A DNA stretch of 64,000 nucleotides, taken from NCBI RefSeq assembly GCF_021730615.1, contig NZ_JAJLMN010000001.1, forward strand, positions 2,367,501 through 2,431,500, in the 5' to 3' direction. The DNA is from Lichenibacterium dinghuense. Its GTDB lineage: Bacteria; Pseudomonadota; Alphaproteobacteria; Rhizobiales; Beijerinckiaceae. Both the position numbers and the translations under genes were made by a program. Shown one piece after another: positions 20,415 to 37,683 of the stretch. The stretch's first letter is position 1, and every line of letters begins with the position of its first letter. Under the pieces are notes generated by a model. The model ran no database searches, was not told where the DNA came from, and saw only the letters and a program-made list of their open reading frames with translations.

Positions 20415-21062
20415 ATGCGTGTGATGGGTTTGGTCGCCGCCGTTCTGGTGAGCCTCGGCGTGTGGGCCGCTCCGGCCGAGGCCGCCGTCGACATCCAGGT
20501 GGACCTGTCGACGCAGACGATGCACGTCCGCTCCGCGAATGGCGCCGCCTACGACTGGCCCGTCTCGACGGCGCGCATGGGCTACGTGACCCCGAACGGG
20601 CACTACGGCGTGCAGAGCCTCCAGGCGATGCACTATTCCAAGAAATACCACAACTCGCCGATGCCGCACTCGATCTTCTTCCACGGCGGCTACGCGATCC
20701 ACGGCACCTACGCGACCGGCTCGCTCGGCGCCGCCGCGTCGCACGGTTGCGTGCGGCTGTCGCCGGCCCACGCCGCCCAGCTCTACGACATGGTCAAGGC
20801 CGAGGGGGCCAGCATCAACATCGTCGGCAGCCGCCCCGGCCGCGGCGAGGTGCAGGTCGCCCGCCGCCGTCATGCCGAACCCGAGGCTGTGGCCTATGCC
20901 GACGACGACCAACCCCTCGTGACGCGCCGCACCCGCCACCGCGACTACGCCCGCCAGGACCGCTACCGCGAGCCGGCCCTCGGCTACGCCGCGGTGCGGC
21001 GGGCGCCGAGCTACGGCGACTGGCTGGATGACCCTTTCGGGGCGGTCCTGAGCGGCTACTGA
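20415..21062 (+). CDS. Secreted L,D-transpeptidase (YkuD domain)
   Basis: The 215-residue protein has a Sec signal peptide (MRVMGLVAAVLVSLGVWAAP, cleaved after AEA) and then the YkuD domain with the active-site block IHGTYATG and SHGCVRLSPAHAAQLYDMV, where Cys is the nucleophile. Such enzymes form 3-3 peptidoglycan cross-links or attach proteins to the wall in the periplasm. After the domain comes a His/Arg/Tyr-rich tail of about 75 residues. ATG 20415 has GGAG eight bases upstream and starts the signal peptide cleanly; GTG 20367 or ATG 20373 would add an N-terminal leader. It overlaps the stop of the convergent TPP enzyme gene. Confidence 0.9.
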   Translation: MRVMGLVAAVLVSLGVWAAPAEAAVDIQVDLSTQTMHVRSANGAAYDWPVSTARMGYVTPNGHYGVQSLQAMHYSKKYHNSPMPHSIFFHGGYAIHGTYATGSLGAAASHGCVRLSPAHAAQLYDMVKAEGASINIVGSRPGRGEVQVARRRHAEPEAVAYADDDQPLVTRRTRHRDYARQDRYREPALGYAAVRRAPSYGDWLDDPFGAVLSGY

Positions 21063-22750
21063 CAGGACCCAGAGGGGCCTCGGCGCCCCGCTCGCTCCCG
21101 GATCGCGCTCAGCGTGGTTGCGGGGGTGATGGCCTCCGGGTCGACCTTGACGTGGAGGATGGCCGGCAGGCCGGACGCCTCGGCCCGCGCGAAGGCGCCC
21201 GGAAAGTCCTCCGTCCGCTCCACCGTCTCGCCGTGGCCGCCGAAGGCGCGCGCGTAGGCGGCGAAGTCGGGGTTGCGCAGCGCCGTGCCGCTGACCCGGC
21301 CCGGGTATTCGCGCTCCTGGTGCATGCGGATCGTGCCATACATGCCGTTGTCGACCACGACCACGATCACGGCCAGGCCGTATTGCACCGCCGTGGCGAA
21401 GTCCTGCCCCGTCATCAGGAAGCAGCCGTCGCCCGCGAAGGCCACGACCGTGCGCGACGGGTCGAGCCGCTTGGCGCCGATCGCGGCGGGCACGCCGTAG
21501 CCCATCGAGCCGGAGGTCGGCGCGAGCTGGGCGTTGAAGGCGCGGAAGCGGTGGAACCGGCCGGGCCAGATCGCGTAGTTGCCGGCCCCGTTGGCCACGA
21601 TCGCGTCCGCCGGCAAATGCTCTCGCAGCCAGCACACGACCTCGCCCATGTTCACGGGGCCCGGCACGGCGGGGGGGCGCTCCGTCCAGGCGAGGTAGTC
21701 GGCGTGGGCTGCGGCCCCCGCGCCGGACCAGCGGATCGCCTGCGGCGGCTGCACGGCCTCGAGCGAGGCCGCGAAGGTGCGGGCCGCCGCGTGGATGCCG
21801 AGCGCCGGGGCGTAGACCCGACCGATCTCGCCCGCGTCCGGGTGGACGTGCACGAGGCGCTGGCGCGGCACCGGCACGTCGAGCAGCGTGTAGCCCTGCG
21901 ACGGCATCTCGCCCATGCGGGCGCCGACGAGCAGCAGCAGATCGGCCCCCGCGAGGCGGTCGCGCAGCTTCGGGTTCGGCCCGATGCCGATCTCGCCGGC
22001 GTAGTTCGGATGCGCGGCGTCGAACAGGCCGGCGCGGCGGAACGAGCAGGCGACCGGCAGGTCGAAGCGCTCGGCGAAGCGCGCCACGGCGGCCGAGGCC
22101 TGCGCGGTCCAGCCCGAGCCGCCCAGCACCATCGCGGGCCGCTCGGCGGCCCAGAGCATCTTCTGCAACTCCGCCATCTGCGGCAGGCCCGGCCAGGGCA
22201 GCGCCGGCTCGACGCGCGGCGCGTCCGCGACGGCGGCGACGCTCGTGAGAACGTCCTCGGGCAGGGCCACGACGACGGGGCCGGGGCGGCCCTGCAGCGC
22301 CACGTGGAAGGCGCGCGAGATCACCTCGGGCAGGCGGGCCGGGTCGTCGACCTCGACGGCCCATTTGGCGACCGTGCCGAACACAGCCGCGTAGTCCAGC
22401 TCCTGGAACGCCCCCCTGCCCCGCATCGCGCGCCCGACCTGCCCGACGAAGACGATCAGCGGCACGGAATCGTGCTCGGCCACGTGGAGGCCCGCCATGG
22501 CGTTGGCGGCGCCGGGGCCGCGCGTCACCATGCAGACGCCGGGGCGACCGGTGAGCCGCGCCACCGCGTCCGCCATCATGGCGGCGCCGGCCTCGTGGCG
22601 GCACACCGTGAGTCGGATCGGCGAATCGTGCAGCGCGTCGAGCGCCGCGAGGTAGCTCTCGCCCGGCACGCAGAAGACGTGGCCGACGCCCTGCGCGGCC
22701 AAGCCCTCGACCAGGATGCGGCCGCCGGTGCGGGGCGCGATGTCCGTCAT
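21056..22750 (-). CDS. Thiamine-diphosphate enzyme, acetolactate synthase-like
   Basis: The 564-residue protein has the three-domain layout of the acetolactate synthase/decarboxylase family. The N-terminal PYR domain includes the catalytic Glu in VCRHEAGAAMMADA and GVCMVTRGPGAANAM. A central Rossmann-like domain and a C-terminal PP domain follow, the latter with the ThDP/Mg motif VAFAGDGCFLMTGQDFATAV through DNGMYGT. It is not a clear acetolactate synthase (no ilvH partner) nor oxalyl-CoA decarboxylase. Its gene start overlaps the stop of a class III CoA-transferase gene by four bases, suggesting an acyl-CoA lyase or decarboxylase role. Confidence 0.85.
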   Translation of the reverse strand: MTDIAPRTGGRILVEGLAAQGVGHVFCVPGESYLAALDALHDSPIRLTVCRHEAGAAMMADAVARLTGRPGVCMVTRGPGAANAMAGLHVAEHDSVPLIVFVGQVGRAMRGRGAFQELDYAAVFGTVAKWAVEVDDPARLPEVISRAFHVALQGRPGPVVVALPEDVLTSVAAVADAPRVEPALPWPGLPQMAELQKMLWAAERPAMVLGGSGWTAQASAAVARFAERFDLPVACSFRRAGLFDAAHPNYAGEIGIGPNPKLRDRLAGADLLLLVGARMGEMPSQGYTLLDVPVPRQRLVHVHPDAGEIGRVYAPALGIHAAARTFAASLEAVQPPQAIRWSGAGAAAHADYLAWTERPPAVPGPVNMGEVVCWLREHLPADAIVANGAGNYAIWPGRFHRFRAFNAQLAPTSGSMGYGVPAAIGAKRLDPSRTVVAFAGDGCFLMTGQDFATAVQYGLAVIVVVVDNGMYGTIRMHQEREYPGRVSGTALRNPDFAAYARAFGGHGETVERTEDFPGAFARAEASGLPAILHVKVDPEAITPATTLSAIRERAGRRGPSGSCQ

Positions 22751-23928
22751 GCATGTCCTCCCCAGGCCGGGTCGGCCAGGATCTCGTCCCTATGCTGGTC
22801 GAGGCCCGGCGCCGGGCGCGGGCTCGCCTGGGGCGCGCCGTCGATCAGGATCGGCGAGCGGATGCCGGGCGTCGTGCCCCCCTCCGCGGCCGGGTTGGGC
22901 AGCCGGAGCGCCATGCCCCGCGCCGCGACCTGCGGGTCGGCGAAGACCTGCCCCACGGTGTTGATGGGGCCGGCCGGCACGCCGGCGGCGTCGAGTCTGG
23001 CCAGCAGCTCCGCCGCGGCTCGGCGCGACGTGAGCGCGTGGAGCGCCGCGGTCAGGGCCGCGCGCTGGGCGACGCGGCCCCGGTTGGTCGTGTAATCAGG
23101 GTGAGCGGCGAGCGCCGGGTCGCCGAGCACGTCGCACAGGCGCCGGAACTGCCCGTCGTTGCCGGTGGCGATGACGACGTGGCCGTCCGCGACCGGGAAC
23201 ACGTCGTAGGGCACGATGGAGGGGTGGGCGTTGCCGAGGCGGCGGGGCTCGCGGCCCGAGACGAGGTAGTTCAGCCCCTGCGAGCTCAGCATGGCGACCT
23301 GGCTGTCGAGCAGGGCGCAGTCGATCGTGGCCCCCTCCCCCGTGACGGCCCGCCGGATCAGCGCCGCCTGGATGGCGTTGGCGGCGTAGAGGCCGGTGAA
23401 CAGGTCCGCGACGGCCATGCCGGACTTGGTGGGCGGGCCGTCAGCCTCGCCGGTGACCGACATGGCGCCGCCCATGCCCTGGATCAGGAAGTCGTAGCCG
23501 GCGCGGGACGCGTAGGGGCCGTCCTGGCCGAAGCCGGAGATGGAGCAGACCACGAGGCGCGGGTTCAGCGCGCGCAGCGAGGCCGGGTCGAGCCCGTAGC
23601 GCTCGAGGCCGCCGACCTTGAAGTTCTCGACCACCACGTCGGCGTGCAGCGCCAGGCGGCGCACGAGGGCCCGGCCCTCCTCCGCCTCGAAGTCGGCCGC
23701 GACGCAGCGCTTGCCGCGGTTGCAGCTGTGGAAATAGGCGGCGCCGAGGTCGGAGCCGTCGGCCGCGGGGACGAAGGGCGGCCCCCACTGCCGCGTGTCG
23801 TCGCCGGCCCCCGCCCGCTCGACCTTGACGACGTCCGCGCCGAGGTCGGCGAGGAGCTGCCCGCACCAGGGGCCGGCCAGGATGCGGGCCAGCTCGAGGA
23901 CGCGGATGCCGTGGAGGGGTGGTGACAT
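22747..23928 (-). CDS. Class III CoA-transferase (CaiB/BaiF family)
   Basis: The 393-residue enzyme starts LHGIRVLELARILAGPWCGQLLADLGADVVKVE, the typical family III opening, with QWGPPFVP and AAYFHSCNRGKR. The active-site Asp lies in the GYDFLIQGMGG region. Members move CoA between carboxylic acids such as formate/oxalate, carnitine or succinate/malate-type acids by a covalent Asp-CoA intermediate. It overlaps the downstream ThDP enzyme by four bases, so the two are almost certainly co-translated. The donor and acceptor acids are not evident. Confidence 0.88.
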   Translation of the reverse strand: MSPPLHGIRVLELARILAGPWCGQLLADLGADVVKVERAGAGDDTRQWGPPFVPAADGSDLGAAYFHSCNRGKRCVAADFEAEEGRALVRRLALHADVVVENFKVGGLERYGLDPASLRALNPRLVVCSISGFGQDGPYASRAGYDFLIQGMGGAMSVTGEADGPPTKSGMAVADLFTGLYAANAIQAALIRRAVTGEGATIDCALLDSQVAMLSSQGLNYLVSGREPRRLGNAHPSIVPYDVFPVADGHVVIATGNDGQFRRLCDVLGDPALAAHPDYTTNRGRVAQRAALTAALHALTSRRAAAELLARLDAAGVPAGPINTVGQVFADPQVAARGMALRLPNPAAEGGTTPGIRSPILIDGAPQASPRPAPGLDQHRDEILADPAWGGHA

Positions 23929-26005: not shown

Positions 26006-26836
26006 TTATGCGGCCGGCAGGCGCAGGAGGCTTCGGGCCTCGGCGGCCGTGGCCACCGCGCGGCCGTGCTTGGCCACGAGGTCCGCAGCGACGCGCACCA
26101 GCTCGGCATTGCCGGAGGCGAGCCGGTCCTTCGTGATGCGGATGTTGTCCTCGAGCCCCGTGCGGATGTGCCCGCCCATGCCGAGCGCCCAGTCGGCCAC
26201 CTCGCTCTGGTGGCGGCCGATGCCGGCCGCCGTCCAGGTCATGTCGGGCAGCGCCGCGCGGGCCTCCTCGACCAGGACCTTGAGCAGCCGCTCCATCGCC
26301 GGCATGGCGTTCTTCACGCCGAGAACGAACTGCAGGTGGGCGTGGCGGTCCATCAGGCCGGCGTCGACGAGGCGCTTGGCGCCGTGGATGTGCGACAGGT
26401 CGAAGACCTCGATCTCGGGCTTCACGCCGAAATGCTTCATCTTGCCGGCCAGCTCGTCGACCAGCGGCGGCTGGTTCTCGTAGACGATGGACGGGAAGTT
26501 GACCGAGCCGGTCGACAGCGACGCCATGTCGGGCCGGAACTCCAGCGCGGCCGAGCGCTGCGCCGGGGTGCGGCCGCGGCCGCCGGTCGAGAACTGCACG
26601 ATCATGCCGGGGCAGTGCCGGCGCACGCCCTCCTGCACCTGCCGGAACAGCTCGGGGTCGGAGGAGGGCGACTCGTCGGGCTCGCGCACGTGGATGTGGA
26701 CCAGCGTGGCGCCGGCCTCGAAGGCGGCGTGGGTCGACTCGACCTGCTCGGACGGCGTCACCGGCAGGGCCGGGTTGTCGCGTCTGCGCGGCACCGAGCC
26801 CGTGATGGCGATGGCGATGATGACGGGGGACGGCAT
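26006..26836 (-). CDS. Beta-keto acid cleavage enzyme (BKACE, DUF849)
   Basis: The 276-residue TIM-barrel enzyme carries the BKACE metal motif VHIHVREP (HxH) near residue 47, the acidic loop with ETxE-like residues, QFSTGGRGRT, SLSTGSVNF and the C-terminal GLEDNIRITKDRLASGNAELV. Family enzymes use Zn to condense a beta-keto acid with acetyl-CoA, giving acetoacetate plus a new acyl-CoA; the founding member is 3-keto-5-aminohexanoate cleavage enzyme (Kce). Here the gene follows pcaB by nine bases inside a protocatechuate cluster lacking pcaIJ and pcaF. I infer beta-ketoadipate as substrate, giving succinyl-CoA and acetoacetate. Confidence 0.85.
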   Translation of the reverse strand: MPSPVIIAIAITGSVPRRRDNPALPVTPSEQVESTHAAFEAGATLVHIHVREPDESPSSDPELFRQVQEGVRRHCPGMIVQFSTGGRGRTPAQRSAALEFRPDMASLSTGSVNFPSIVYENQPPLVDELAGKMKHFGVKPEIEVFDLSHIHGAKRLVDAGLMDRHAHLQFVLGVKNAMPAMERLLKVLVEEARAALPDMTWTAAGIGRHQSEVADWALGMGGHIRTGLEDNIRITKDRLASGNAELVRVAADLVAKHGRAVATAAEARSLLRLPAA

Positions 26837-26845
26837 GGCGGCCTC

Positions 26846-27886
26846 TCAGGCGGGGCGGATCGGAAAGGACAGGCGCTCGACCAGCGACAGCGCCGTGCGC
26901 AGCGAGGCACCGGCCGCGACGACGAGCTGCGGCAGGACGAGCCATTCGAGCGTCCAGGCGGCGCCCGAGCGCTCGTTCTCGTGGACGAGCGCCCCCGTCA
27001 GCGTGCCGGACAGGCCGGCCGCGAGCCGCGCGAGGCTCACCAGCAGCTCCGCCGGGACGGGGTTCGACTTGTGGGCCATGGCCGAGGACGTGCCGCCCCC
27101 GGCGAGGCGCGCCGCGCCGACCTCGTTCTGCACCATGAGGGCGACGTCCTGGCCTATCTTGCCGAGGCTGCCGCAGACCAGCGCTAGCCAGGCGCCGAGC
27201 TCGGCCACGCCGTCGCGCTGCGCATGCCAGGCGGGGGAGTCGGCGAGGCCGAGGCGCCCGGCGACGCGCGCGGCGACGGCCTCGGCATAGGCGCCGAGCT
27301 CGGCGCGGGTGCCGACGGGGCCGCCGAGCTGCAGGCGCAGCACGCGGGGGCGCAGCGCGGCGAGCCGGGCGCGGTGGCGCGGCAGCGGCCCACGCCAGGT
27401 CTCGACCTTGTCGGCGGCCGTGAACGGCAGCGCGCGCTGCATGCGGGTCTGCGCCATCAGGGGCACCGCGCCGTCGCGGGTCGACAGGGCGGCCAGGGCG
27501 GCGTCGAGCGCGTCGAGGCGGGTGTCGAGCACGTCGAGCGCGGGGCCGAGGCGGAGCATGAGGCTCGTGTCGACGGCGTCCTGGCTGGTGGCGCCGCGGT
27601 GGAGGTGTTTTCCGTGCGGCTCACCGATCGCGGCGCGGAGCTGGCGCACCAGCTCCGGCACGGGCACGCCGTCGCGGGCCACGCCGGCGCGGAGCGCCGC
27701 CCAGTCGGGCGCGAAGGAGGCGAGCGCCCCGGCGATGCGCGCGGCGGCTTCCAGCGGCACCATGCCGGCGGCCGCCTGAGCCTCGGCGAGGGCCGCCTCG
27801 AAGCGCAGCATCGCGGCGAGGTCGGCCTCGTCGGTGAAGAAGGCCTCGATCTCGGGATCGCCGGCGAGGGCGGAGAGCAGGGTCAT
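26846..27886 (-). CDS. pcaB: 3-carboxy-cis,cis-muconate cycloisomerase
   Basis: Second step after ring opening in the protocatechuate branch: cyclises beta-carboxy-cis,cis-muconate to gamma-carboxymuconolactone. The 346-residue product is a member of the fumarase/aspartase superfamily, with the signature GGGTSSAMAHKSNPVPAE, the HRGATSQDAVDTS active-site block and QTRMQRALPFT. It is shorter than fused or adenylosuccinate-lyase-like homologues but normal for alphaproteobacterial PcaB. It is separated from pcaG by a 192-bp spacer containing a palindromic element, and precedes the BKACE gene by 9 bp. Confidence 0.93.
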   Translation of the reverse strand: MTLLSALAGDPEIEAFFTDEADLAAMLRFEAALAEAQAAAGMVPLEAAARIAGALASFAPDWAALRAGVARDGVPVPELVRQLRAAIGEPHGKHLHRGATSQDAVDTSLMLRLGPALDVLDTRLDALDAALAALSTRDGAVPLMAQTRMQRALPFTAADKVETWRGPLPRHRARLAALRPRVLRLQLGGPVGTRAELGAYAEAVAARVAGRLGLADSPAWHAQRDGVAELGAWLALVCGSLGKIGQDVALMVQNEVGAARLAGGGTSSAMAHKSNPVPAELLVSLARLAAGLSGTLTGALVHENERSGAAWTLEWLVLPQLVVAAGASLRTALSLVERLSFPIRPA

Positions 27887-27897
27887 GGCGCGACGCT

Positions 27898-28062
27898 CCC
27901 CTTCTCCCCTCGCGGGAGAAGGTGGCCCGACGAAGTCGGGTCGGATGAGGGGGTCCGGCGCAACGCTCGACGATCATCCTTTCGACCCTGCGAGGTCGAG
28001 CCATGCCCCCTCATCCGCCCTGACTGCGTCAGGGCACCTTCTCCCGCGAGGGGAGAAGGGGG
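27898..28062. repeat. Composite palindromic element between pcaG and pcaB
   Basis: Two hairpins of the CCTTCTCCC/GGGAGAAGG type (27900-27922 and 28037-28059) stand in inverted orientation. Between them lie inverted CGGATGAGGGGG (near 27943) and CCCCCTCATCCG (near 28008). The whole 165-bp unit is thus itself a near-palindrome. A similar unit lies at 47886-47997. Its location inside a probable operon suggests it could attenuate or process the pca transcript between pcaHG and pcaB. Confidence 0.75.
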
Positions 28063-28078
28063 CCACGTCGTGAGGGGC

Positions 28079-28711
28079 TCACACATCGAAGAACACCGTC
28101 TCGTGGTGACCCTGGAGGTGGACGTCGAAGGTGTAGACCGGCAGGCCGTCCTCCTCGCTCCGCGGCGCGATCAGGGTTTCCCGCCGCGACGGGTGCTCGA
28201 TGCGCTTCAGCACCGGGCACTCGGCGTTGGCCGCGGCCTCGTCGCCGAAATACATCCGGGTGTGCAGGCCGATGTTGATGCCGCGCGCCACGATGTAGAC
28301 CGTGATGTGCGGGGCCATCGGCCGCCCGTCCGTATAGGGCACGCGGCCGGGCTTGATCGTCTCGAAGCGGAACTCGCCCGTCTCGCGGTGGGTGGGCTGG
28401 CGCCCCCAGCCGGCGAAGTTCGGGTCCGCCCTGCCCCGCCGCTCCTCGGCGCTGTTGTAGAGCCCGTCGGCGTCGGCCTGCCAGATCTCGACGAGGGCGT
28501 CGTTGAGCGGCTTGCCGAGCCCGTCGAAGATGCGGCCGCGCACCAGGATGCGCTCGCCCTTCGTGTCGGGCCCGACCAGCACGAGGCCGAGGTCGCCCTC
28601 CCACACGCCGGTGATCTCGACCCAGTTGGGGTTGGTGCCGATGTGGACGTAGGGTCCGGCCGTCTGCGACGGGGATTCCTTGTACACGGGACGGGGCACG
28701 CCGAGGCTCAT
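28079..28711 (-). CDS. pcaG: Protocatechuate 3,4-dioxygenase alpha subunit
   Basis: The 210-residue alpha subunit forms the intradiol dioxygenase with PcaH, opening protocatechuate to beta-carboxy-cis,cis-muconate. Visible are the shared fold elements SQTAGPYVHIGTNP, VRGRIFDGLGKPLNDALVEIWQADADG, NFAGWGRQPT and the C-terminal HVHLQG-like DVHLQGHHETVFFDV. As usual for alpha subunits, the iron-binding Tyr/His set of the beta subunit is not fully conserved. ATG 28711 shares one base with the pcaH stop codon (TGATG), so translation is coupled. Confidence 0.95.
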   Translation of the reverse strand: MSLGVPRPVYKESPSQTAGPYVHIGTNPNWVEITGVWEGDLGLVLVGPDTKGERILVRGRIFDGLGKPLNDALVEIWQADADGLYNSAEERRGRADPNFAGWGRQPTHRETGEFRFETIKPGRVPYTDGRPMAPHITVYIVARGINIGLHTRMYFGDEAAANAECPVLKRIEHPSRRETLIAPRSEEDGLPVYTFDVHLQGHHETVFFDV

Positions 28712-29439
28712 CAGTTCCCCTCCATCCGGTTCTCGAACGGCGTCGAGCGCCGGCCGCGCAGCACGATGTCGAAGCGGTAGGCCAGCGAGTCCATGTGGGT
28801 GGTGTTCTGCCGGTCGAGCGCGGCGATGAGCTGCTCCACGGCGAGCCTGTCGGGGATCGTGCCGACGATCGGGCACTGCCAGATCATCGGGTCGCCCTCG
28901 AAATACATCTGCGTCACCAGCCGCTGCGCGAAGGCGTGGCCGAACAGCGAGAAGTGGATGTGCGCCGGGCGCCAGTCGTTGACGCGGTTGGGCCAGGGAT
29001 AGGCGCCGGGCTTGACCGTGCGGAAGCGGTAGGAGCCGTCCGCCGCGGTGATGCAGCGCCCGCAGCCGCCGAAGTTGGGGTCGAGCGCGGCGTGGTAGGT
29101 TTCCTTGTGGTGGCGGTAGCGCCCGCCCGCGTTGGCCTGCCAGAACTCGACCAGCGTGTCCGGCAGCCCGCGGCCGTTCTCGTCCATCACGCGCCCGTGG
29201 ACGACGATGCGCTGGCCGATGGCGTCGCCGGTCTTGGACCAGTTGGTGATGAGGTCGTCGTCGCGCGGCCCCAGCATGGCGTGGCCGAAGACGGGGCCGG
29301 TCATCTCCGAGATCGTGTTGTCGATCGACAGCAGCGCCTGCTTGGGCGAGCGCAGCACGCTCGTCTTGTAGTCGGGCGTGTAGGCGGGCGGGTGCCAGTC
29401 GCGGTCGCGCTGGTAGAAGCTGCCCTTGTGGTCCGACAT
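28711..29439 (-). CDS. pcaH: Protocatechuate 3,4-dioxygenase beta subunit
   Basis: The 242-residue catalytic subunit carries the ferric-iron ligands: Tyr in [11 protein letters not shown], Tyr in [21 protein letters not shown], and both His of AHIH. The N-terminal [18 protein letters not shown] and ISEMTGP are typical of PcaH. I chose ATG 29439, with an excellent AGGAGGAGG ribosome-binding site; an upstream in-frame start at 29469 would add ten residues. It is the first dioxygenase gene, 26 bases after the permease stop. Confidence 0.96.
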
Positions 29440-29465
29440 GGCCCCCTCCTCCTGGTCTCCGGGCC

Positions 29466-30845
29466 TCACACCCGCGCCTGCGCCATGCCGCCGGCCGGGC
29501 CGTCGAACGCCTCCGGCGTGGCGTCACGATGGCCGAGGTCGGCGAGGCGGATGCGGTAGGTTTCCCGCGTCGTGAAGGCCGCCGCCGCCGAGATCAGCGT
29601 GACCACCAGGGCGAAGGTCCCGATCGTGACCGGGATGCCGGTCGAGCCGGGGGGCGCGATATAGGCGAAGAGCGCCGGCAGGGCGGCCGTGATGGCGGTG
29701 CCGACGTTCTGGGCGATCGCCATGGCGGTCACGCGCACCCGCGTCTGGAACAGCTCCGGATAGAAGGACGGGTAGACGGCGTTGTAGCCCTGGTAGACGA
29801 TGCCCCACATCAGGATCGACAGGACGAAGGCCAGCGGCACGCTGCCGATCGAGATGGCCCAGAGGTAGGCGTAGGACAGCAGGCCCGAGCCGACCGCCCC
29901 GACCATGACGGGCAGGCGCCGGCCGATGCGGTCCGACAGGGCGCCGACGTAGGGGATCACCAGCACGGCCACGATGTTCCCCACCACGGGGATCCAGAGG
30001 TAGACGTCCTTGGCGAAGCCGATGCCGTAGGCGGGCTGCACCGCGTAGGCGGCGCCGAAGATGGTCGCGACCGTCGGGATGACGTTCATCAGCGCCATGC
30101 AGACGACGCGCAGCATGTCGTCCCACGACAGGCGGAAGGCCTCGGGGATGGGCGCGCGCGGCACGGCGCGCTCCGCGCTCTCCTCGGCGAAGGCCGGGGT
30201 CTCCTCCACCTCGCGGCGGATGACGTAGCCGGCGACGATCACCAGCGCGGAGAGCAGGAAGGGCACGCGCCAGCCCCAGGCGTTGAAGCTGTCCGTCGGC
30301 ATGAAGCGGGCCAGCGGCAGGAACACGGCGGCGGCCAGGATCTGCCCGGCCTGCACGCCCTGGAGCGTGAAGCTGGCGAAGTAGCCGCGCCGGCCGAAGG
30401 GCGCGTGCTCCAGGATCATCGAGGAGGCGCCCGAGATCTCGCCCGCCACGGCGAAGCCCTGGATCAGGCGCATCATCACGAGGAGGACGGGCGCCCAGAC
30501 GCCGACCTGGCCGTAGGTCGGCAGCAGGCCGACCGCCATGGTCGAGAAGCCCATCAGGAACATGCACAGCAGGAGCACGTTCTTGCGTCCGTGCGTGTCG
30601 CCCCAGTGGCCCAGCGCGAAGGCGCCGATCGGCCGCGCCACGTAGCCGGCCCCGTAGGTGGCGAGGGACGCCACGATGGCGGTGTTCGGGTCGGTCGACG
30701 GGAAGAACAGCTGCGGGAACACCAGCGCCGAGGCGGTGGCGTAGATGAAGAAGTCGTAATATTCGAGCGCCGAACCGATCCAGCCGCTCGCCGCGGCCTT
30801 CTTCGACTGATTCCTGGAATGCGCGCTGACCTGTGAGCCGTCCAT
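29466..30845 (-). CDS. MFS transporter, metabolite:H+ symporter (MHS) family, aromatic/shikimate uptake
   Basis: The 459-residue protein has 12 predicted membrane helices and the MHS hallmarks: [23 protein letters not shown] at the first helix, the loop motif [17 protein letters not shown] after helix 2 and [15 protein letters not shown] in helix 5. The family takes up organic acids such as shikimate, citrate, alpha-ketoglutarate and protocatechuate by proton symport. Position between shikimate dehydrogenase and pcaHG points to shikimate, quinate or protocatechuate as cargo. ATG 30845 is followed by a short hydrophilic leader and preceded by AGGAAGGACACGCC. Confidence 0.9.
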
Positions 30846-30937
30846 GGCGTGTCCTTCCTGATGGTGGTGGGGTCGGCGGCCTTCTGGTGGGCCGCTCGTT
30901 CGCAACGTCTGCGGCCCGCGCGGGCCGCCGAAACCTC

Positions 30938-31849
30938 TCAGCTCCCGGCCCGGATGGCGCCGAAGGCCGCGACCATGCGCTCGCTGTCCGGCTCGCGGCC
31001 CGAGAAGAGCCGGAACGCCTCCACGGCCTGGAACACCGCCATGCCGCCGCCGTCGAGCGTGCGGCAGCCGATCGCCCGCGCGCGGCGCAAGAGCTCGGTT
31101 TCCAGCGGGAAGTAGATCACCTCGGCGACCCAGAGGCGGGGGTGGAGCAGCTCGGCCGGCAGCGGCAGGCCGGGATGGGCCTCCATGCCGATCGGCGTCG
31201 CGTTGATCAGCCCGTCCGCTTCGGCCAGGGAGGCCTTCCGGTCCTCGCCGACGGCGGCACGCCCCGCGAAGGTCGTATCGAGGTTGGCGACGAGCGCCTC
31301 GGCGCGGTCGCGGTCCGTGTCGAAGATTGTGAGCCGCTCGACGCCGAGCGTCAGCGCCGCATGGGCCACCGCCGCGCCGGCCCCGCCCGCGCCGAGCTGC
31401 ACCACGCGCCCGAGCGGCACGCCGGCCATGTGGCGCCTGAACGGCTCCGCGAAGCCGGACCAGTCCGTGTTGTGGCCGATGCGCCTGCCGTCCCGGAACA
31501 GCACGGTGTTGACGGCGCCGAGCGCGCGGGCGTCGGGCGACAGCTCGTCGAGCAGCGGGATCACGGCCTGCTTGCAGGGATGGGTGATGTTCAGCCCGTC
31601 GAAGCCGAGGCGCTGAGCGCCGGCCAGCAGGTCGGGCAGCGCCTCGACGCCGACGCCGAGCGCGGCGAGGTCGATGAGGCGGTAGACGCAGCGCATCCCC
31701 TGCGCCTCGGCCTCGCGCATCTGCATCTCGGGCGTGAGCGAGGCGCCGATGTTCTGGCCGATCAGGCCGAGCAGGAGCGCGGGCCGACGGCTCCCGCGGG
31801 TTCGGACGGACGCCGCCGCAGCGCCCGCAACTTCATCCCCCGCCGCCAT
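30938..31849 (-). CDS. Shikimate/quinate dehydrogenase (catabolic AroE paralogue)
   Basis: The 303-residue protein has the AroE fold. The substrate domain begins LLGLIGQNIGASLTPEMQMREA, the variant opening of catabolic shikimate/quinate dehydrogenases, and continues with GLNITHPCKQAV (catalytic Lys) and NTDWSGF. The nucleotide domain has QLGAGGAGAAVAHAALTLG, and the acidic DTDRDRAE after the next strand suggests NAD use. It should oxidise shikimate to 3-dehydroshikimate (or quinate to 3-dehydroquinate), feeding the QuiC dehydratase encoded divergently. The genome's biosynthetic aroE is presumably elsewhere. Confidence 0.88.
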   Translation of the reverse strand: MAAGDEVAGAAAASVRTRGSRRPALLLGLIGQNIGASLTPEMQMREAEAQGMRCVYRLIDLAALGVGVEALPDLLAGAQRLGFDGLNITHPCKQAVIPLLDELSPDARALGAVNTVLFRDGRRIGHNTDWSGFAEPFRRHMAGVPLGRVVQLGAGGAGAAVAHAALTLGVERLTIFDTDRDRAEALVANLDTTFAGRAAVGEDRKASLAEADGLINATPIGMEAHPGLPLPAELLHPRLWVAEVIYFPLETELLRRARAIGCRTLDGGGMAVFQAVEAFRLFSGREPDSERMVAAFGAIRAGS

Positions 31850-31937: not shown

Positions 31938-32861
31938 CTATGAACTTCGCGTTAATTTCAGCCGCGCGACCGCCGGCTCGGCGGCCGTCATCTCCGCGCG
32001 CAGCCGCTCCACGAAATGCGCGGCGTGCACGGACATCTCCGAGCCGCGCTTCGTCGCGACGAAGGTTTCGAAGCGCGTGGGCTCGGCGATGGGGAGCATC
32101 GTCACGCCCGGCATGGCGTCGGCCAGGGTGAACTGGTCGATCACGGCGATGCCGAGCCCCGCCTTGACGAGCGCGCAGACGGTGGAGCCGAACCGCGCCC
32201 GGATCGGGACGTCGTAGGCGAGCTTCAGGCCGGCGAACAGGCCCGCCATGACGGCGCCGTAGGGGTCGGCGGCGTCGATGCCGATCAGCGGGTGGCGGCA
32301 GATCTCGGCCGCGCTGACGACGGGCCGCGCCGCCAGGGGGTGACGGTCGGGGACGATGCAGAACAGCTCGCCCGCGGCGAGCGGATGCACGTCGAGGCCG
32401 GGATGGTCGAGGCGGTAGCTCATCGCCACGCATTCCACCTTGTCGAGCAGCAGGTGGTTCAGCACCTCCTCGAGCTTGAGCACGTTGATGTTGAACCTGA
32501 GGTCCGGGTAGCGCCGGCGCACGGCCGCGACCGCGCGGGGCACCATCACCTGCGCGATGCTGGGGACGGCCCCGATCCGCAGCTCCGACGAGGTCCCGCG
32601 GCCGATGGCCGTGATGGTGTCGCCGAGGTCGTCGATCTTGCGGTACACCTCGTCGATCTGCTCGAAGATGCTGCGCGCCTCCGCGGTCGGGACGAAGCGC
32701 CCGTTGCGCCGGTCGAAGAACCGGACGGCGTGCGCGCGCTCGGCGTGCTTGACGAGCCGGCTGATGCCGGGCGCCGACACGTTGAGGATCTTGGCCGCGC
32801 CGTTGACGCTGCCCGCCACCATCACGGCCCGGATGACCTCGATCTGGCGCAGCGTCATCAT
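31938..32861 (-). CDS. LysR family transcriptional regulator of the aromatic cluster
   Basis: The 307-residue protein has the LysR N-terminal winged helix, MTLRQIEVIRAVMVAGSVNGAAKILNVSAPGISRLVKHAE, and a C-terminal type 2 periplasmic-binding effector domain (ELRIGAVPSIAQVMVP, LGIAVIDQFTLADAMPG). It is divergent from quiC across 160 bp and is the first gene of the minus-strand pca set. It likely controls quiC and its own operon in response to an aromatic or shikimate-type ligand. Two ATGs in tandem (32861, 32858) are possible starts. Confidence 0.9.
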   Translation of the reverse strand: MMTLRQIEVIRAVMVAGSVNGAAKILNVSAPGISRLVKHAERAHAVRFFDRRNGRFVPTAEARSIFEQIDEVYRKIDDLGDTITAIGRGTSSELRIGAVPSIAQVMVPRAVAAVRRRYPDLRFNINVLKLEEVLNHLLLDKVECVAMSYRLDHPGLDVHPLAAGELFCIVPDRHPLAARPVVSAAEICRHPLIGIDAADPYGAVMAGLFAGLKLAYDVPIRARFGSTVCALVKAGLGIAVIDQFTLADAMPGVTMLPIAEPTRFETFVATKRGSEMSVHAAHFVERLRAEMTAAEPAVARLKLTRSS

Positions 32862-33021: not shown

Positions 33022-34905
33022 ATGAAGACATCGATCGCCACCGTGTCCATCAGCGGCACCCTCGAGGAGAAGATCTCCGCCATCGCCCAGGCGGGCTTCG
33101 ACGGCGTCGAGATCTTCGAGCAGGACTTCATCGCCTTCGACCATTCGCCGCGCGAGGTCGGCCGCATGGTGCGCGACGCGGGCCTCGAGGTCACGCTGTT
33201 CCAGCCGTTCCGCGACTTCGAGGGCCTGCCCGAGCCGTTCCGCACCCGCGCCTTCCACCGCGCTGAGCGCAAGTTCGACGTGATGGAGGAGATCGGCGCG
33301 AAGCTGCTCCTCGTCTGCTCCAGCGTGTCGCCGCACGCGCAGGGCGGCATCGACCGCGCCGCCGCGGACCTGCGCGAGCTCGGCGAGCGGGCGGCGCGGC
33401 GGGGGCTGAAGGTCGGCTTCGAGGCCCTGGCCTGGGGCCGCTTCGTCAGCGACCACCGCGACGCGTGGGAGATCGTGCGGCGCGCCGACCATCCGGCGGT
33501 CGGCCTCATCCTCGACAGCTTCCACACCCTGTCGCGCGGCATCGACACGGCCAGCATCAGGGCCATCCCGCAGGACAGGATCGCGCTCGTGCAGATGGCG
33601 GACGCGCCGCGCCTGCAGATGGACCTCCTGTCGTGGAGCCGGCACTTCCGCTCCATGCCGGGGCAGGGCGACCTGCCGCTCGCCCAGTTCTGGGAAGCCG
33701 TGCGGGCGACGGGCTACGACGGCGTGCTGTCCCTGGAGATCTTCAACGACAGCTTCCGGGCCGGGTCGGCGGGCGCCGTCGCGGTGGATGGGCACCGCTC
33801 GCTGGTCTACCTCGACGACGAGGTGCGCAAGCGGCTCGACCCGCGCGCCGCGGATGCCCTGCCCCCGCGGTCGCGCTCCTCCGGCGTCGAGTTCATCGAG
33901 TTCGCCCTCGGCGAGGAAGCGCCGGCCTTCGAATCCCTGATCGGCGCGCTCGGCTTTCGCCGCACCGCCACGCACAGGTCGAAGCGGGTGGCGCTCTGGT
34001 CGCAGAACGGCGTCAATCTCGTGGTCAACGGCGACCCGCACGGCTTCGCGCACTCGTCCTACCTGGTGCACGGCCCGTCGGTCTGCGCCATCGGCCTCAG
34101 GGTCGCCGACGCCGCGGCCGTGATGGCGCGGGCCGAGGCGCTCGGCGCGACGCCGTTCCACCAGAAGGTGCTGGAGGGCGAGCTGGAGATCCCGGCCATC
34201 CGCGGCGTCGGCGGCAGCCTGCTCTACTTCGTCGACCCGCACGGCGACCTGTCCCGCCTGTGGGACGTCGACTTCGTGCCCGTCACCCCGGCGCCGGAGC
34301 CCGGCGCGGTCGGCCTGCGGGGCATCGACCACGTCGCGCAGTCGATGGACCACGACGAGATGCTGTCCTGGCTGCTCTTCTACACGTCGATCCTCGACCT
34401 CGGGAAAACGCCGGGCCTCGACATCGCCGACCCGCGCGGCCTCGTCCACAGCCTCGTCGTCGAGAACGACGACCAGTCGCTGAGCCTCGTGCTCAACGGC
34501 TCGCAGGGCCAGGGGACCGCGGCGGCGCGCTTCGTCAGCGAGTTCTCCGGCTCGGGCGTGCAGCACATCGCCTTCGAGACCGCGGACATCGTCGCCACGG
34601 CGCGCGCCCTGAGGGAGGCCGGCCTCGCCACGCTGCCCATCCCCGAGAACTATTACGACGACCTCGAAGCCCGCTTCGACCTGCCCGACGCGGTGCTGGC
34701 GGAGTTCCGAAGCCTCGGCATCATGGTCGAGCGCGACGGCGAGGGGGAGTTCCTCCAGCTCTTCACCACGACCTTCGCCGAGCTGTTCTTCTTCGAGATC
34801 GTCGAGCGGCGCGGCGGCTACCGGGGCTTCGGGGCCACCAACGCGGCGGTGCGCCTCGCGGCGCAGAACCGCCTGTCGCGCCCCCCGGCCATCCCGCGGC
34901 GGTAG
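33022..34905 (+). CDS. quiC: Bifunctional 3-dehydroshikimate dehydratase / HPPD-like protein
   Basis: The 627-residue fusion matches Pseudomonas QuiC1-type enzymes. The N-terminal TIM-barrel (residues 1 to about 275; MKTSIATVSISGTLEEKISA, GFDGVEIFEQDF, GLILDSFHTLSRG, QMADAP, LSLEIFNDSFR) is the metal-dependent dehydratase converting 3-dehydroshikimate to protocatechuate. The C-terminal half (about 285-620) is a 4-hydroxyphenylpyruvate dioxygenase-like vicinal-oxygen-chelate module with metal residues in GIDHVAQ, VQHIAFET and FFEIVER. The role of that half is unsettled in the family. ATG 33022 follows a 160-bp promoter region shared with lysR. Confidence 0.93.
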   Translation: MKTSIATVSISGTLEEKISAIAQAGFDGVEIFEQDFIAFDHSPREVGRMVRDAGLEVTLFQPFRDFEGLPEPFRTRAFHRAERKFDVMEEIGAKLLLVCSSVSPHAQGGIDRAAADLRELGERAARRGLKVGFEALAWGRFVSDHRDAWEIVRRADHPAVGLILDSFHTLSRGIDTASIRAIPQDRIALVQMADAPRLQMDLLSWSRHFRSMPGQGDLPLAQFWEAVRATGYDGVLSLEIFNDSFRAGSAGAVAVDGHRSLVYLDDEVRKRLDPRAADALPPRSRSSGVEFIEFALGEEAPAFESLIGALGFRRTATHRSKRVALWSQNGVNLVVNGDPHGFAHSSYLVHGPSVCAIGLRVADAAAVMARAEALGATPFHQKVLEGELEIPAIRGVGGSLLYFVDPHGDLSRLWDVDFVPVTPAPEPGAVGLRGIDHVAQSMDHDEMLSWLLFYTSILDLGKTPGLDIADPRGLVHSLVVENDDQSLSLVLNGSQGQGTAAARFVSEFSGSGVQHIAFETADIVATARALREAGLATLPIPENYYDDLEARFDLPDAVLAEFRSLGIMVERDGEGEFLQLFTTTFAELFFFEIVERRGGYRGFGATNAAVRLAAQNRLSRPPAIPRR

Positions 34906-35098: not shown

Positions 35099-35506
35099 TC
35101 AGGCGCTCCCCTGCCCCTTCGCCGCCTCGGCCTCCATGGCCGCGTAGGTCTGCTTGACGACCTTGATGGCGCTGTTGGCGGCCGGCACGCCGGCGTAGAC
35201 GGCGACGTGCAGCATGGCCTCCGCCACGTCGTCCGGCGTCGCCCCGGTGTTGGCGGTGGCGCGCACGTGCAGCGCCACCTCCTCGTGATGGCCGAGCGCG
35301 GCCAGGAGCGCCAGCGTCACGATCGAGCGCTCGCGCTTGGTGAAGCCCGGCCGCGACCAGACCGAGCCCCAGGCCCCCTCGGTGATGAAGCGCTGGAAGT
35401 CGGCGTCGAAGGGCGTGACGGCGGCCGAGGCCCGCGCCACGTGGGCCTCGCCCAGCACCGAGCGGCGCACGGCGAGGCCCTGTTGATAGCGCGCGTCGTC
35501 AGTCAT
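35099..35506 (-). CDS. pcaC: 4-carboxymuconolactone decarboxylase
   Basis: The 135-residue AhpD-fold protein decarboxylates gamma-carboxymuconolactone to 3-oxoadipate enol-lactone. Family features are YQQGLAVRRSVLGEAHVARA at the N-terminus, FTKRERSIVTLALLAALGHHEEVALHVRA in the core (His of HHEE) and VAVYAGVPAANSAIKVVK. It is a stand-alone PcaC, not the fused PcaL form. Its start overlaps the end of pcaD by eight bases, so the two are translationally coupled. Confidence 0.94.
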   Translation of the reverse strand: MTDDARYQQGLAVRRSVLGEAHVARASAAVTPFDADFQRFITEGAWGSVWSRPGFTKRERSIVTLALLAALGHHEEVALHVRATANTGATPDDVAEAMLHVAVYAGVPAANSAIKVVKQTYAAMEAEAAKGQGSA

Positions 35507-36299
35507 CGTCGGTGACCTGGTCCAGGAGCTCGGTCATCAGCGCCGCCATCTCGTCCGGCCGCTCGATGCAGGGCAGGTGCCCGGCGCCCTCGATCACGGC
35601 GAAGCGCGCGCCGGGGATCATCTCCGCCGTGGCGCGGACGAGGTCGGGCGGGGACGCCTCGTCGGCGTCGCCCACGAGCACGAGGGTGGGCACGTCGATC
35701 CGGGGCGCTTCGTTCGACAGGTCGGCGTCGCGGATCGCCTCGCAGGAGGCGATATAGCCCTTCGCCGACTGGCGGGTGAGCATGTTGCGCCAGATGCGCA
35801 GCGGCATGTCCTCCTCGGCGCGGTAGTCGGCGGTGAACCAGCGCTCCATCGTGGCGTCGCCGATCGCCTCCATGCCGCCCGCCTCGATCCTGGCGATGCG
35901 CTCGTTCCAGCTCGCGGCGTCGCCCATCTTGACCGCCGTGTCGCACAGGATCAGCGCTGCGAGCCGCTCGGGCGCGCGCACGGCGAGGCGCTGGGCGATC
36001 AGGCCGCCGATCGACAGGCCGACGAGGCCGAAGCGGTCGACCCCGAAGTGGTCCACCAGGGCCAGGAGGTCGTCGACGTGGCGGTCGATGGTGACGGGCC
36101 CCTGCCCGAGGTCCGACAGGCCGTGGCCGCGCTTGTCGTAGAGCAGCAGGCAATAGTCCTCGGCGAAGTGGGACGCGACCTGGTCCCAGATGCGGAAGTC
36201 CGTGCCGAGCGAGTTCACGAAGCAGAGGACGGGCTGTTCCTCGGGGTCGCCGATCAGCTCGGCGTGGATGACGGCGTCGCCGCTCTCGACGAAGATCAT
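35499..36299 (-). CDS. pcaD: 3-oxoadipate enol-lactonase
   Basis: The 266-residue alpha/beta hydrolase opens 3-oxoadipate enol-lactone to beta-ketoadipate. Motifs are VLCFVNSLGTDFRIWDQV (oxyanion region), LLLYDKRGHGLS, the nucleophile elbow GLSIGGLIAQRLA, VGDADEASPP (catalytic Asp) and GAGHLPCIERP (catalytic His). The cap-domain segment EAIGDATMERWFTADYR is typical of PcaD. ATG 36299 has AAGGACAC upstream. Transcribed with pcaC, downstream of pobA across a 190-bp spacer with palindromes. Confidence 0.94.
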   Translation of the reverse strand: MIFVESGDAVIHAELIGDPEEQPVLCFVNSLGTDFRIWDQVASHFAEDYCLLLYDKRGHGLSDLGQGPVTIDRHVDDLLALVDHFGVDRFGLVGLSIGGLIAQRLAVRAPERLAALILCDTAVKMGDAASWNERIARIEAGGMEAIGDATMERWFTADYRAEEDMPLRIWRNMLTRQSAKGYIASCEAIRDADLSNEAPRIDVPTLVLVGDADEASPPDLVRATAEMIPGARFAVIEGAGHLPCIERPDEMAALMTELLDQVTDDD

Positions 36300-36489: not shown

Positions 36490-37683
36490 TCACATCGGCA
36501 GGCCGACGTAGTTCTCGGCCAGGGTGGTCTGCGCGGCGCGGGAGCCGCGGATGTAGGCGAGCTCCGCCACCTGCATCCGCCGCGCGAACGGGTCCGTGTC
36601 GGGGAAGCGGTGCATCAGGCCGGTGAACCACCAGGAGAACCGCTCGGCCTTCCACACGCGGGCCAGGGCGCGGGCCGAGTAGCCGTCGATGCCCGCCGTC
36701 GCGCCCTCCTCGAAGAAGTCGACCAGCGCCTCGCCCAGCATGGTCACGTCCGACACGGCGAGGTTCATGCCCTTGGCGCCGGTCGGCGGCACGATGTGGG
36801 CGGCGTCGCCGGCGAGGAACAGCCGGCCGTGGCGCATCGGCTCGCCCACGAAGCTCCGGAGCGGCGCCACCGTCTTCTCGAACGAGGGGCCGCGGGTGAC
36901 GCGGCTCGCCACCTCCGGGCCGAGGCGCAGGCACAGCTCGTCCCAGAACCGCTCGTCCGGCCAGTCCTCGACGCGCTCGCCGGCGGAGCATTGCAGGTAG
37001 TAGCGGCTGCGCGTCGCCGAGCGCATGGAGGCGAGGGCGAAGCCGCGCGCGTGCGAGCAGTAGATCAGCTCGCCATCCGCCGGGGGCACGTCGGCCAGGA
37101 TGCCGAGCCAGCCGAAGGCGTAGACGCGCTCGAAAGTCTCGAGCACGCCCGCCGGGATGGCGGCGCGGCTGACGCCGTGAAAGCCGTCGCAGCCCGCCAC
37201 CACGTCGCAGTCGACGACGTGGTCGACGCCGCCGCGCCGGTAGCGGAGGCGGGGCGTGTCGGTCTCGACATCCTCGATCCGGAGATCCTCGGCGCCGAAG
37301 ACGACGTCGAGGCCGCGCGTCTCGGCGGCGTCGAACAGGTCCTTCATCACCTCCTGCTGGCCGTAGACCGTCACGGTGGCGCCGCCGGTGAGCGCCGCGA
37401 AATCGATGCGGAAGGCATCCCCGTCGACCGACAGCACCGTGCCGGAATGGACGAGGCCTTCGCGCCTCAGGCGCCGGTCGAGGCCGAGCCGCGCGAGCAG
37501 ATCGACGGTGCCCCGCTCCAGCACGCCGGCGCGGACGCGGCCCTCGACATAGGCGCGGTCGCGGCGCTCCAGGATGACGACGTCGATGCCGTGCTGGCGC
37601 AGCAGGTGCCCGAGCAGCATGCCGGCCGGCCCCGCCCCGACGATCCCGACCTGACGCCTCGTCCTGCTCCGACCCTCGACCAT
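36490..37683 (-). CDS. pobA: 4-hydroxybenzoate 3-monooxygenase
   Basis: The 397-residue FAD monooxygenase makes protocatechuate from 4-hydroxybenzoate with NADPH and O2. Visible motifs are the FAD GxGxxG QVGIVGAGPAGMLLGHLL, RVRAGVLERGTVDLL in the substrate region, the DG motif VVAGCDGFHGVSR and the second FAD motif GDAAHIVPPTGAKGMNLAVSDV. YFRRP-like substrate residues lie in RYYLQCSAGERVEDW. Length is exactly that of PobA. It heads the pobA-pcaD-pcaC strand. No AraC-type PobR gene is adjacent; the next gene upstream is 277 bp away. Confidence 0.95.
   Translation of the reverse strand: MVEGRSRTRRQVGIVGAGPAGMLLGHLLRQHGIDVVILERRDRAYVEGRVRAGVLERGTVDLLARLGLDRRLRREGLVHSGTVLSVDGDAFRIDFAALTGGATVTVYGQQEVMKDLFDAAETRGLDVVFGAEDLRIEDVETDTPRLRYRRGGVDHVVDCDVVAGCDGFHGVSRAAIPAGVLETFERVYAFGWLGILADVPPADGELIYCSHARGFALASMRSATRSRYYLQCSAGERVEDWPDERFWDELCLRLGPEVASRVTRGPSFEKTVAPLRSFVGEPMRHGRLFLAGDAAHIVPPTGAKGMNLAVSDVTMLGEALVDFFEEGATAGIDGYSARALARVWKAERFSWWFTGLMHRFPDTDPFARRMQVAELAYIRGSRAAQTTLAENYVGLPM

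Follow-up and report, generated by a model that had tools for sequence, protein, structure and literature searches.

The window analyzed here, the whole stretch of 64 kb, sits in a 6.1-Mb genome that is assembled into 5 contigs and is 99.24% complete. The source bacterium is a relative of lichen-dwelling species, and the window carries a gene cluster for the degradation of plant aromatic acids. The genes of this cluster and its flank are:

21056-23928, downstream of BKACE: span of a gene pair, a thiamine-diphosphate enzyme (NF006052, 881.6 bits) and the CaiB-type enzyme of the next entry, which overlap by 4 bases
22747-23928, about 2 kb below BKACE: CaiB-type (class III) CoA-transferase (565 bits to succinate-glutarate CoA-transferase, cut-off 750)
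26006-26836, minus strand: BKACE (DUF849, PF05853), predicted 3-oxoadipate:acetyl-CoA acetyltransferase, 276 amino acids (NF053568, 450.7 bits, cut-off 350)
26846-27886, minus strand: pcaB, 3-carboxy-cis,cis-muconate cycloisomerase, 346 amino acids (TIGR02426, 380.5, cut-off 355.75)
28079-28711, minus strand: pcaG, protocatechuate 3,4-dioxygenase alpha (TIGR02423, 245.7, cut-off 126.25; scanned as 28079-28714)
28711-29469, minus strand: pcaH, protocatechuate 3,4-dioxygenase beta (TIGR02422, 371.2, cut-off 296.4)
29466-30905, minus strand: predicted MFS transporter of the metabolite:H+ symporter type (TIGR00883, 350 bits, under the cut-off of 443.45)
30938-31849, minus strand: shikimate/quinate dehydrogenase-like protein of the AroE family (NF009201, 446.4, cut-off 235)
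31938-32861, minus strand: LysR-type regulator (the 25 families displayed are all regulators, each under its cut-off)
33022-34905, plus strand: fusion of a 3-dehydroshikimate dehydratase and an HPPD-like domain, QuiC-like (NF042435, 689.9, under the cut-off of 1200; Pfam AP_endonuc_2 and Glyoxalase_5)
35099-35506, minus strand: pcaC, 4-carboxymuconolactone decarboxylase (TIGR02425, 184.6, cut-off 155.7)
35499-36299, minus strand: pcaD, 3-oxoadipate enol-lactonase (TIGR02427, 323.5, cut-off 255.85)
36490-37683, minus strand: pobA, 4-hydroxybenzoate 3-monooxygenase (TIGR02360, 629.1, cut-off 538.7)

Read on the minus strand, the order is LysR, shikimate-dehydrogenase-like gene, MFS transporter, pcaH, pcaG, pcaB and BKACE, with gaps of 88, 32, -4, -1, 192 and 9 bases. 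The QuiC-like fusion is oriented opposite to this run, and pcaC, pcaD and pobA follow past the fusion on the minus strand. A preliminary description of this DNA had reported a DUF849 enzyme 9 bp after pcaB in a cluster with pobA, pcaHG, pcaB, pcaC and pcaD, and both statements were borne out: the two genes share a strand with a 9-base gap (26836/26846), the enzyme passes NF053568, and each of the named genes scores over its TIGR cut-off, such that the upper protocatechuate branch (pcaH, pcaG, pcaB, pcaC, pcaD) is complete. Because of the families to which its genes belong, the cluster should convert 4-hydroxybenzoate, and also shikimate or quinate, to beta-ketoadipate. The expected product of the QuiC-like fusion is protocatechuate; since its score (690 of 1200 bits) is well under the QuiC equivalog cut-off, the protein possibly represents a divergent branch. 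The 192 bases between pcaG and pcaB (27887-28078) contain an imperfect inverted repeat of the CCCTTCTCCCCTCGCGGGAGAAGG type, read by eye, that resembles a dispersed repeat element.

The BKACE protein belongs to PF05853 (311 bits, cut-off 24.8). The genome encodes four BKACE genes, and only the copy in the window passes the 3-oxoadipate:acetyl-CoA acetyltransferase equivalog NF053568, the other three scoring 162, 64 and 50 bits. The closest solved structures by sequence are 3no5, 3chv, 3fa5 and those of Kce. In the alignments, the window protein keeps the positions that match the zinc ligands (H47, H49, E229) and the catalytic residues (S83, E143, R225, D230) of Kce. The position of Glu14 of Kce is Val15 in the window protein. 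The Arg208 position (GIGRHQ) was considered as an active-site fingerprint for beta-ketoadipate and was rejected, because it varies among pca-linked BKACE proteins and is no marker of the substrate.

Whole-genome searches for PcaI/ScoA, CoA_trans and PcaF gave no match within the window, which agrees with the earlier report of a cluster devoid of pcaIJ and pcaF. PcaF over the cut-off is absent from the whole 99.24% complete genome: all 19 candidates were scored, yielding four matches, the best at 404.5 versus a cut-off of 597. This best match is a PhaA-like thiolase adjoining phaR, and the second and third both come from fragments of the same FadA-like gene, adjoining a FadB-like gene. The search works in this order, because the model is positive in 115 of 199 same-order genomes. 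The cut-off is strict, since it is passed in none of 14 named control genomes (C. glutamicum among them), and in principle the search could overlook a divergent PcaF. The model may also catch phenylacetate thiolases. A CoA-transferase of the PcaIJ or CatIJ type was likewise not found in the genome-wide CoA_trans search, in which four matches form two pairs, one ScoAB-like and one AtoDA-like. Since CatI and CatJ of Microvirga both match PF01144, this search should have covered CatIJ. The best structure match of the ScoAB-like pair is 3cdk, subunit A of a succinyl-CoA:3-ketoacid CoA-transferase, and the solved structures nearest to the two pairs are succinyl-CoA:3-ketoacid, 3-oxoacid and acetate CoA-transferases. 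TIGR02429 scores in the order sample fall into two groups, one at 306 bits or more (24 hits, of which 18 lie within 5 kb of pcaF) and one at 275 bits or less; ScoA (263 bits) and the AtoD-like protein (217 bits) of this genome both belong to the lower group, a separation from PcaI that is drawn from a gap in scores. None of the thiolases and ScoAB/AtoDA pairs lies near pca genes. The preliminary description had named intact pcaIJ and pcaF induced with the cluster as evidence against its reading; the genome searches brought up only ScoAB- and AtoDA-type pairs and low-scoring thiolases, and the usual PcaIJF alternative is nearly excluded in this genome.

The missing genes could lie in a gap of the assembly, which consists of 5 contigs and is 99.24% complete. 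Very little of the genome is missing, however, and the PcaI class, the CatIJ type and PcaF would all have to be lost while two ScoAB/AtoDA pairs are present; we regard an assembly gap as extremely improbable. The classical steps could also run in trans, with ScoAB, AtoDA or the CaiB-type enzyme (22747-23928) charging beta-ketoadipate, the PhaA- or FadA-like thiolase cleaving the product, and BKACE catalyzing a side reaction or acting on another substrate. Such non-dedicated CoA-transferases and thiolases are indeed encoded in the genome, ScoAB and PcaIJ are homologous and hit the same model TIGR02429, and other species carry BKACE together with PcaIJF or CatIJ/PcaF. Against this stand the place of ScoA and AtoD in the lower TIGR02429 group apart from PcaI, the nearest structures named above, the scores of the thiolases far under the PcaF cut-off, and the distance of these thiolases and the ScoAB/AtoDA pairs from the pca genes, which together make catalysis in trans unlikely.

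As judged from sequence, BKACE probably substitutes here for PcaIJ and PcaF at the end of the protocatechuate pathway, with acetoacetate being recycled by ScoAB and a thiolase. The substrate and metal of BKACE, its cellular reaction and what becomes of acetoacetate are inferred as follows. PcaHGBCD would make beta-ketoadipate, which a zinc-dependent BKACE would convert with acetyl-CoA to succinyl-CoA and acetoacetate. ScoAB (succinyl-CoA:acetoacetate CoA-transferase, C1:72006) would then form acetoacetyl-CoA and succinate from acetoacetate and succinyl-CoA, and the PhaA-like thiolase (C1:1102610) would cleave acetoacetyl-CoA with CoA to two acetyl-CoA. The arithmetic sum of the BKACE, ScoAB and thiolase steps is beta-ketoadipate + CoA -> succinate + acetyl-CoA, which equals the net reaction of PcaIJ and PcaF. 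The term "shortcut" used in the preliminary description is therefore misleading: a single dedicated gene would, together with housekeeping enzymes, take the place of three, a saving in genes but not in energy as long as acetoacetate is not diverted, e.g. into PHB.

Recycling of acetoacetate elsewhere, also part of the preliminary description, has its candidate genes in the ScoAB-like and PhaA-like loci, both of which are present in the genome and far from the cluster. An acetoacetate-activating enzyme was found in 11 of the 12 same-order genomes that have pcaH and BKACE without PcaF and in 176 of all 199, and because of this wide presence the finding tests nothing; such enzymes were rejected as support for the BKACE route. 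One locus among the best 80 of at least 569 relatives, on a Microvirga plasmid, has the order pcaHG-BKACE-pcaDC-scoA-scoB. Its ScoA and ScoB are 78 and 81% identical to those of the window genome, its ScoA (273 bits) falls into the lower, ScoAB-like group, and the proposed acetoacetate-activating step is thereby joined to the cluster itself. Another genome, G032, has BKACE and a ScoA-type gene on one strand, about 0.8 kb apart, and elsewhere a pcaH with an adjoining PcaF.

Among 199 genomes of the same order, BKACE over the cut-off was found in 53, pcaH in 87 and PcaF in 115. The 87 genomes with pcaH comprise 27 with both BKACE and PcaF, 12 with BKACE only, 47 with PcaF only and a single one with neither (G114, 71% complete); the twelve BKACE-only genomes include the window's own, and four of the twelve share one family. 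BKACE is present in 12 of 13 PcaF-less versus 27 of 74 PcaF-bearing pcaH genomes (p = 1.9e-4, kinship ignored). Among PcaF-less genomes it is present in 12 of 13 with pcaH versus 11 of 71 without pcaH (p = 1.3e-7, kinship ignored). At 13 of the 92 pcaH places in these genomes, window included, BKACE lies at most 25 kb from pcaH. PcaF was found within 25 kb at none of these 13 places versus 28 of the 79 others (p = 0.008); ten of the genomes with pcaH-linked BKACE encode it elsewhere, and in the other three (G000, G024, G095) it was found nowhere. The family of the window genome itself holds several combinations: G082 is the reverse of the window genome, in that PcaI (366 bits) and PcaF are present and none of its BKACE scores passes the cut-off; G042 and G147 have BKACE in a pca cluster and PcaF on another contig; and G117, G174 and G196 have BKACE (69-70% identical) without pcaH and without PcaF over the cut-off. 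Genomic context was fetched at 40 of the 55 over-cut-off BKACE places of the order sample; the remaining 15 are that of the window and 14 more (G173, G195, G134, G032, G057, G064, G006, G113, G183, G014, G080, G016, G161, G104).

The rest of the class was sampled with 285 further genomes (289 searched, 4 shared). Here the order-level pattern fails, with BKACE in none of the nine PcaF-less pcaH genomes, and all five pcaH genomes with BKACE also have PcaF. Taken as a general rule, mutual avoidance of BKACE and PcaF is borne out by the order sample (12/13) and not by the rest of the class (0/9). At the level of the locus, 3 of 50 pcaH places are BKACE-linked and none of them has PcaF near; pooling both samples, PcaF is near 0 of 16 BKACE-linked versus 33 of 126 other pcaH places (p = 0.023). 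The genomes with pcaH and neither PcaF over the cut-off nor this BKACE are G209, G231, G319, G359, G384, G422, G427, G456 and G477.

The nearest named relative, among the best 80 of at least 569, is Lichenibacterium ramalinae, whose BKACE is 92% identical to and on the tree the sister of the window protein. The gene order from pcaD through the CaiB and thiamine-diphosphate genes is identical in both, the latter pair adjoining the cluster in L. ramalinae as well; the fetched stretch stops short of where pobA would be. Given this likeness, the window probably comes from the same genus or one close to it. The arrangement of pca genes and BKACE is not due to chance, because L. ramalinae keeps the order from pcaD to BKACE and the proximity of BKACE and pcaH recurs at 13 of 92 pcaH places.

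A quick tree was calculated from 119 BKACE proteins and 2 distant outgroup rows, two identical proteins having been dropped beforehand. Firm pcaH or pcaG genes lie near BKACE in 35 of the 119, window included. The linkage label changes 20 times on the tree, with at least 12 changes forced by well supported branches. The count had been 21 until one locus (L065) was relabelled as unlinked, because its genome has no pcaH and its dioxygenase match is weak (28% identity, 64 bits). On these numbers, the idea that pca-linked BKACE proteins form a clade of their own was rejected; the label is also clustered, since shuffling gives a mean of 30.5 changes. In all 34 fetched loci with firm pcaH or pcaG these genes are on the strand of BKACE, which comes after pcaG and before any pcaB in 28 and first in 5. 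The order of the window, pcaH-pcaG-pcaB-BKACE, was seen in one of the 34, that of L. ramalinae.

Neighbourhoods were compared at the best 80 loci of at least 569 relatives. Neighbours were assigned by tblastn with the proteins of the window and of a few other loci rather than by full annotation, and because contig ends or the fetched length cut some flanks, missing neighbours are no proof of absence. In these 80, the fetched stretch contains pcaH, pcaG or pcaB at 25 loci, of which 20 are without classical or Sco neighbours, one has scoAB and four, all from Microvirga, have CatIJ; at 54 loci it is without pcaH/G/B, PcaF, PcaIJ, CatIJ and ScoAB. Three of the Microvirga loci (L128, L152, L157) have BKACE beside a cluster with CatIJ and PcaF, and the fourth (L139) has it beside CatIJ, the fetched stretch ending soon after. 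Because of these loci, the separation of BKACE and PcaF is not absolute at the locus level either. In Acetobacter garciniae (L126, 6202-12346) a PcaR-like regulator, pcaI (331 bits), pcaJ, pcaF (678), BKACE and a short-chain fatty acid transporter are consecutive. Both pathway endings apparently share one operon there, with BKACE perhaps serving as a second exit; its place among beta-ketoadipate genes even in this locus speaks for the substrate more than for a replacement. BKACE is not always a replacement, because these five loci (L126, L128, L139, L152, L157) carry it along with classical genes. The earlier proposal that BKACE stands in for pcaIJ and pcaF thus remains the best reading for the window, given the equivalog, the lack of PcaF, PcaIJ and CatIJ in the searches and the recurring arrangement, and does not extend to a general rule.

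A module of MFS transporter (71-75% identical to that of the window), BKACE and CaiB homologue recurs in Bradyrhizobium loci (e.g. L105, 8392-14454). Some of these loci have two BKACE genes, and in L105 BKACE and CaiB are separated by an additional MFS gene. Homologues of the window's MFS transporter with 71-79% identity adjoin BKACE in Bradyrhizobium loci and in one further locus (L101). The Bradyrhizobium modules have no pca genes in the fetched stretch, which is what would be expected if BKACE had a related beta-keto acid as its substrate and lay by pcaB because of a different pathway, e.g. for another dicarboxylic acid via MFS transporter and CaiB-type enzyme, with beta-ketoadipate as a minor substrate. 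The CaiB homologue at 22747-23928 also fits such a pathway, as does the promiscuity of BKACE enzymes reported in the available text of PMC4922564. Nevertheless, the window protein passes the beta-ketoadipate equivalog, pca linkage recurs over the tree, and the genome searches turned up no other known exit for beta-ketoadipate, so we consider another main substrate quite unlikely.

A wider reading, which we put forward as speculation and hold to be rather doubtful, is that in this lineage BKACE is the sole beta-ketoadipate exit and, through its release of free acetoacetate, connects the breakdown of aromatics and shikimate directly to the ketone-body and PHB pool (ScoAB, PhaA beside phaR), that carbon from aromatics can thereby enter PHB stores before any passage through free acetyl-CoA, and that the ending was swapped in and out repeatedly in Alphaproteobacteria.

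None of the papers searched names both Lichenibacterium and protocatechuate in its text. In the accessible parts of PMC6449761 (2019), a COG3246 protein in the catechol regulon of R. eutropha H16 is suggested to cleave a beta-keto acid such as beta-ketoadipate, and COG3246 homologues are associated with protocatechuate 3,4-dioxygenase genes. The sections available of PMC8963497 (2022) describe Methylobacterium pca clusters without pcaI, pcaJ and pcaF and with a DUF849 gene in almost all strains, propose beta-ketoadipate as its substrate and leave open whether PcaIJF homologues are encoded elsewhere in the genome. According to the portions at hand of PMC12379598 (2025), pcaHGBL and kce of M. 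nodulans conferred growth on protocatechuate to M. extorquens PA1; a kce deletion does not appear in these portions. An island of M. extorquens SLI 505 is described as encoding PcaIJ and PcaF in the excerpts of PMC12542667 (2025). The window provides a natural test case, being part of a near-complete genome in which the upper protocatechuate pathway is entire, the searches found no PcaF, PcaIJ or CatIJ and the cluster contains one BKACE, and the loophole in the consulted text of the 2022 Methylobacterium paper, PcaIJF homologues elsewhere, is nearly closed in this genome. A BKACE ending may explain genomes that seem incomplete for the beta-ketoadipate pathway, and might offer a one-gene ending for the engineering of lignin-derived aromatics.

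Compared with known systems, PcaIJ and PcaF have the same net outcome as the BKACE route if acetoacetate is recycled; chemistry and proteins differ, and no such genes were found in this genome. Kce is of the same sequence family as the window protein, to which its zinc and catalytic positions align, whereas it differs in its substrate class and in Glu14, where the window has Val15. The window protein exceeds the curated cut-off of NF053568, a membership that is predicted here by sequence. As far as the available text of PMC6449761 goes, the COG3246 gene of the CatM/BenM regulon in R. eutropha H16 resembles the window in belonging to the BKACE family and in its proposed cleavage of beta-ketoadipate, but acts in the catechol branch of a betaproteobacterium. 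The Methylobacterium clusters, in the parts consulted of PMC8963497 and PMC12379598, are like the window in having BKACE in a pcaHGB cluster without pcaIJ and pcaF and in the reaction proposed; they differ in that BKACE lies between pcaG and pcaB instead of after pcaB, and in that the 2022 paper left homologues elsewhere open whereas the window genome was searched and none was found. The BKACE ending has already been proposed in print (PMC6449761, PMC8963497, PMC12379598), and the window is a new example of it, not a new kind.
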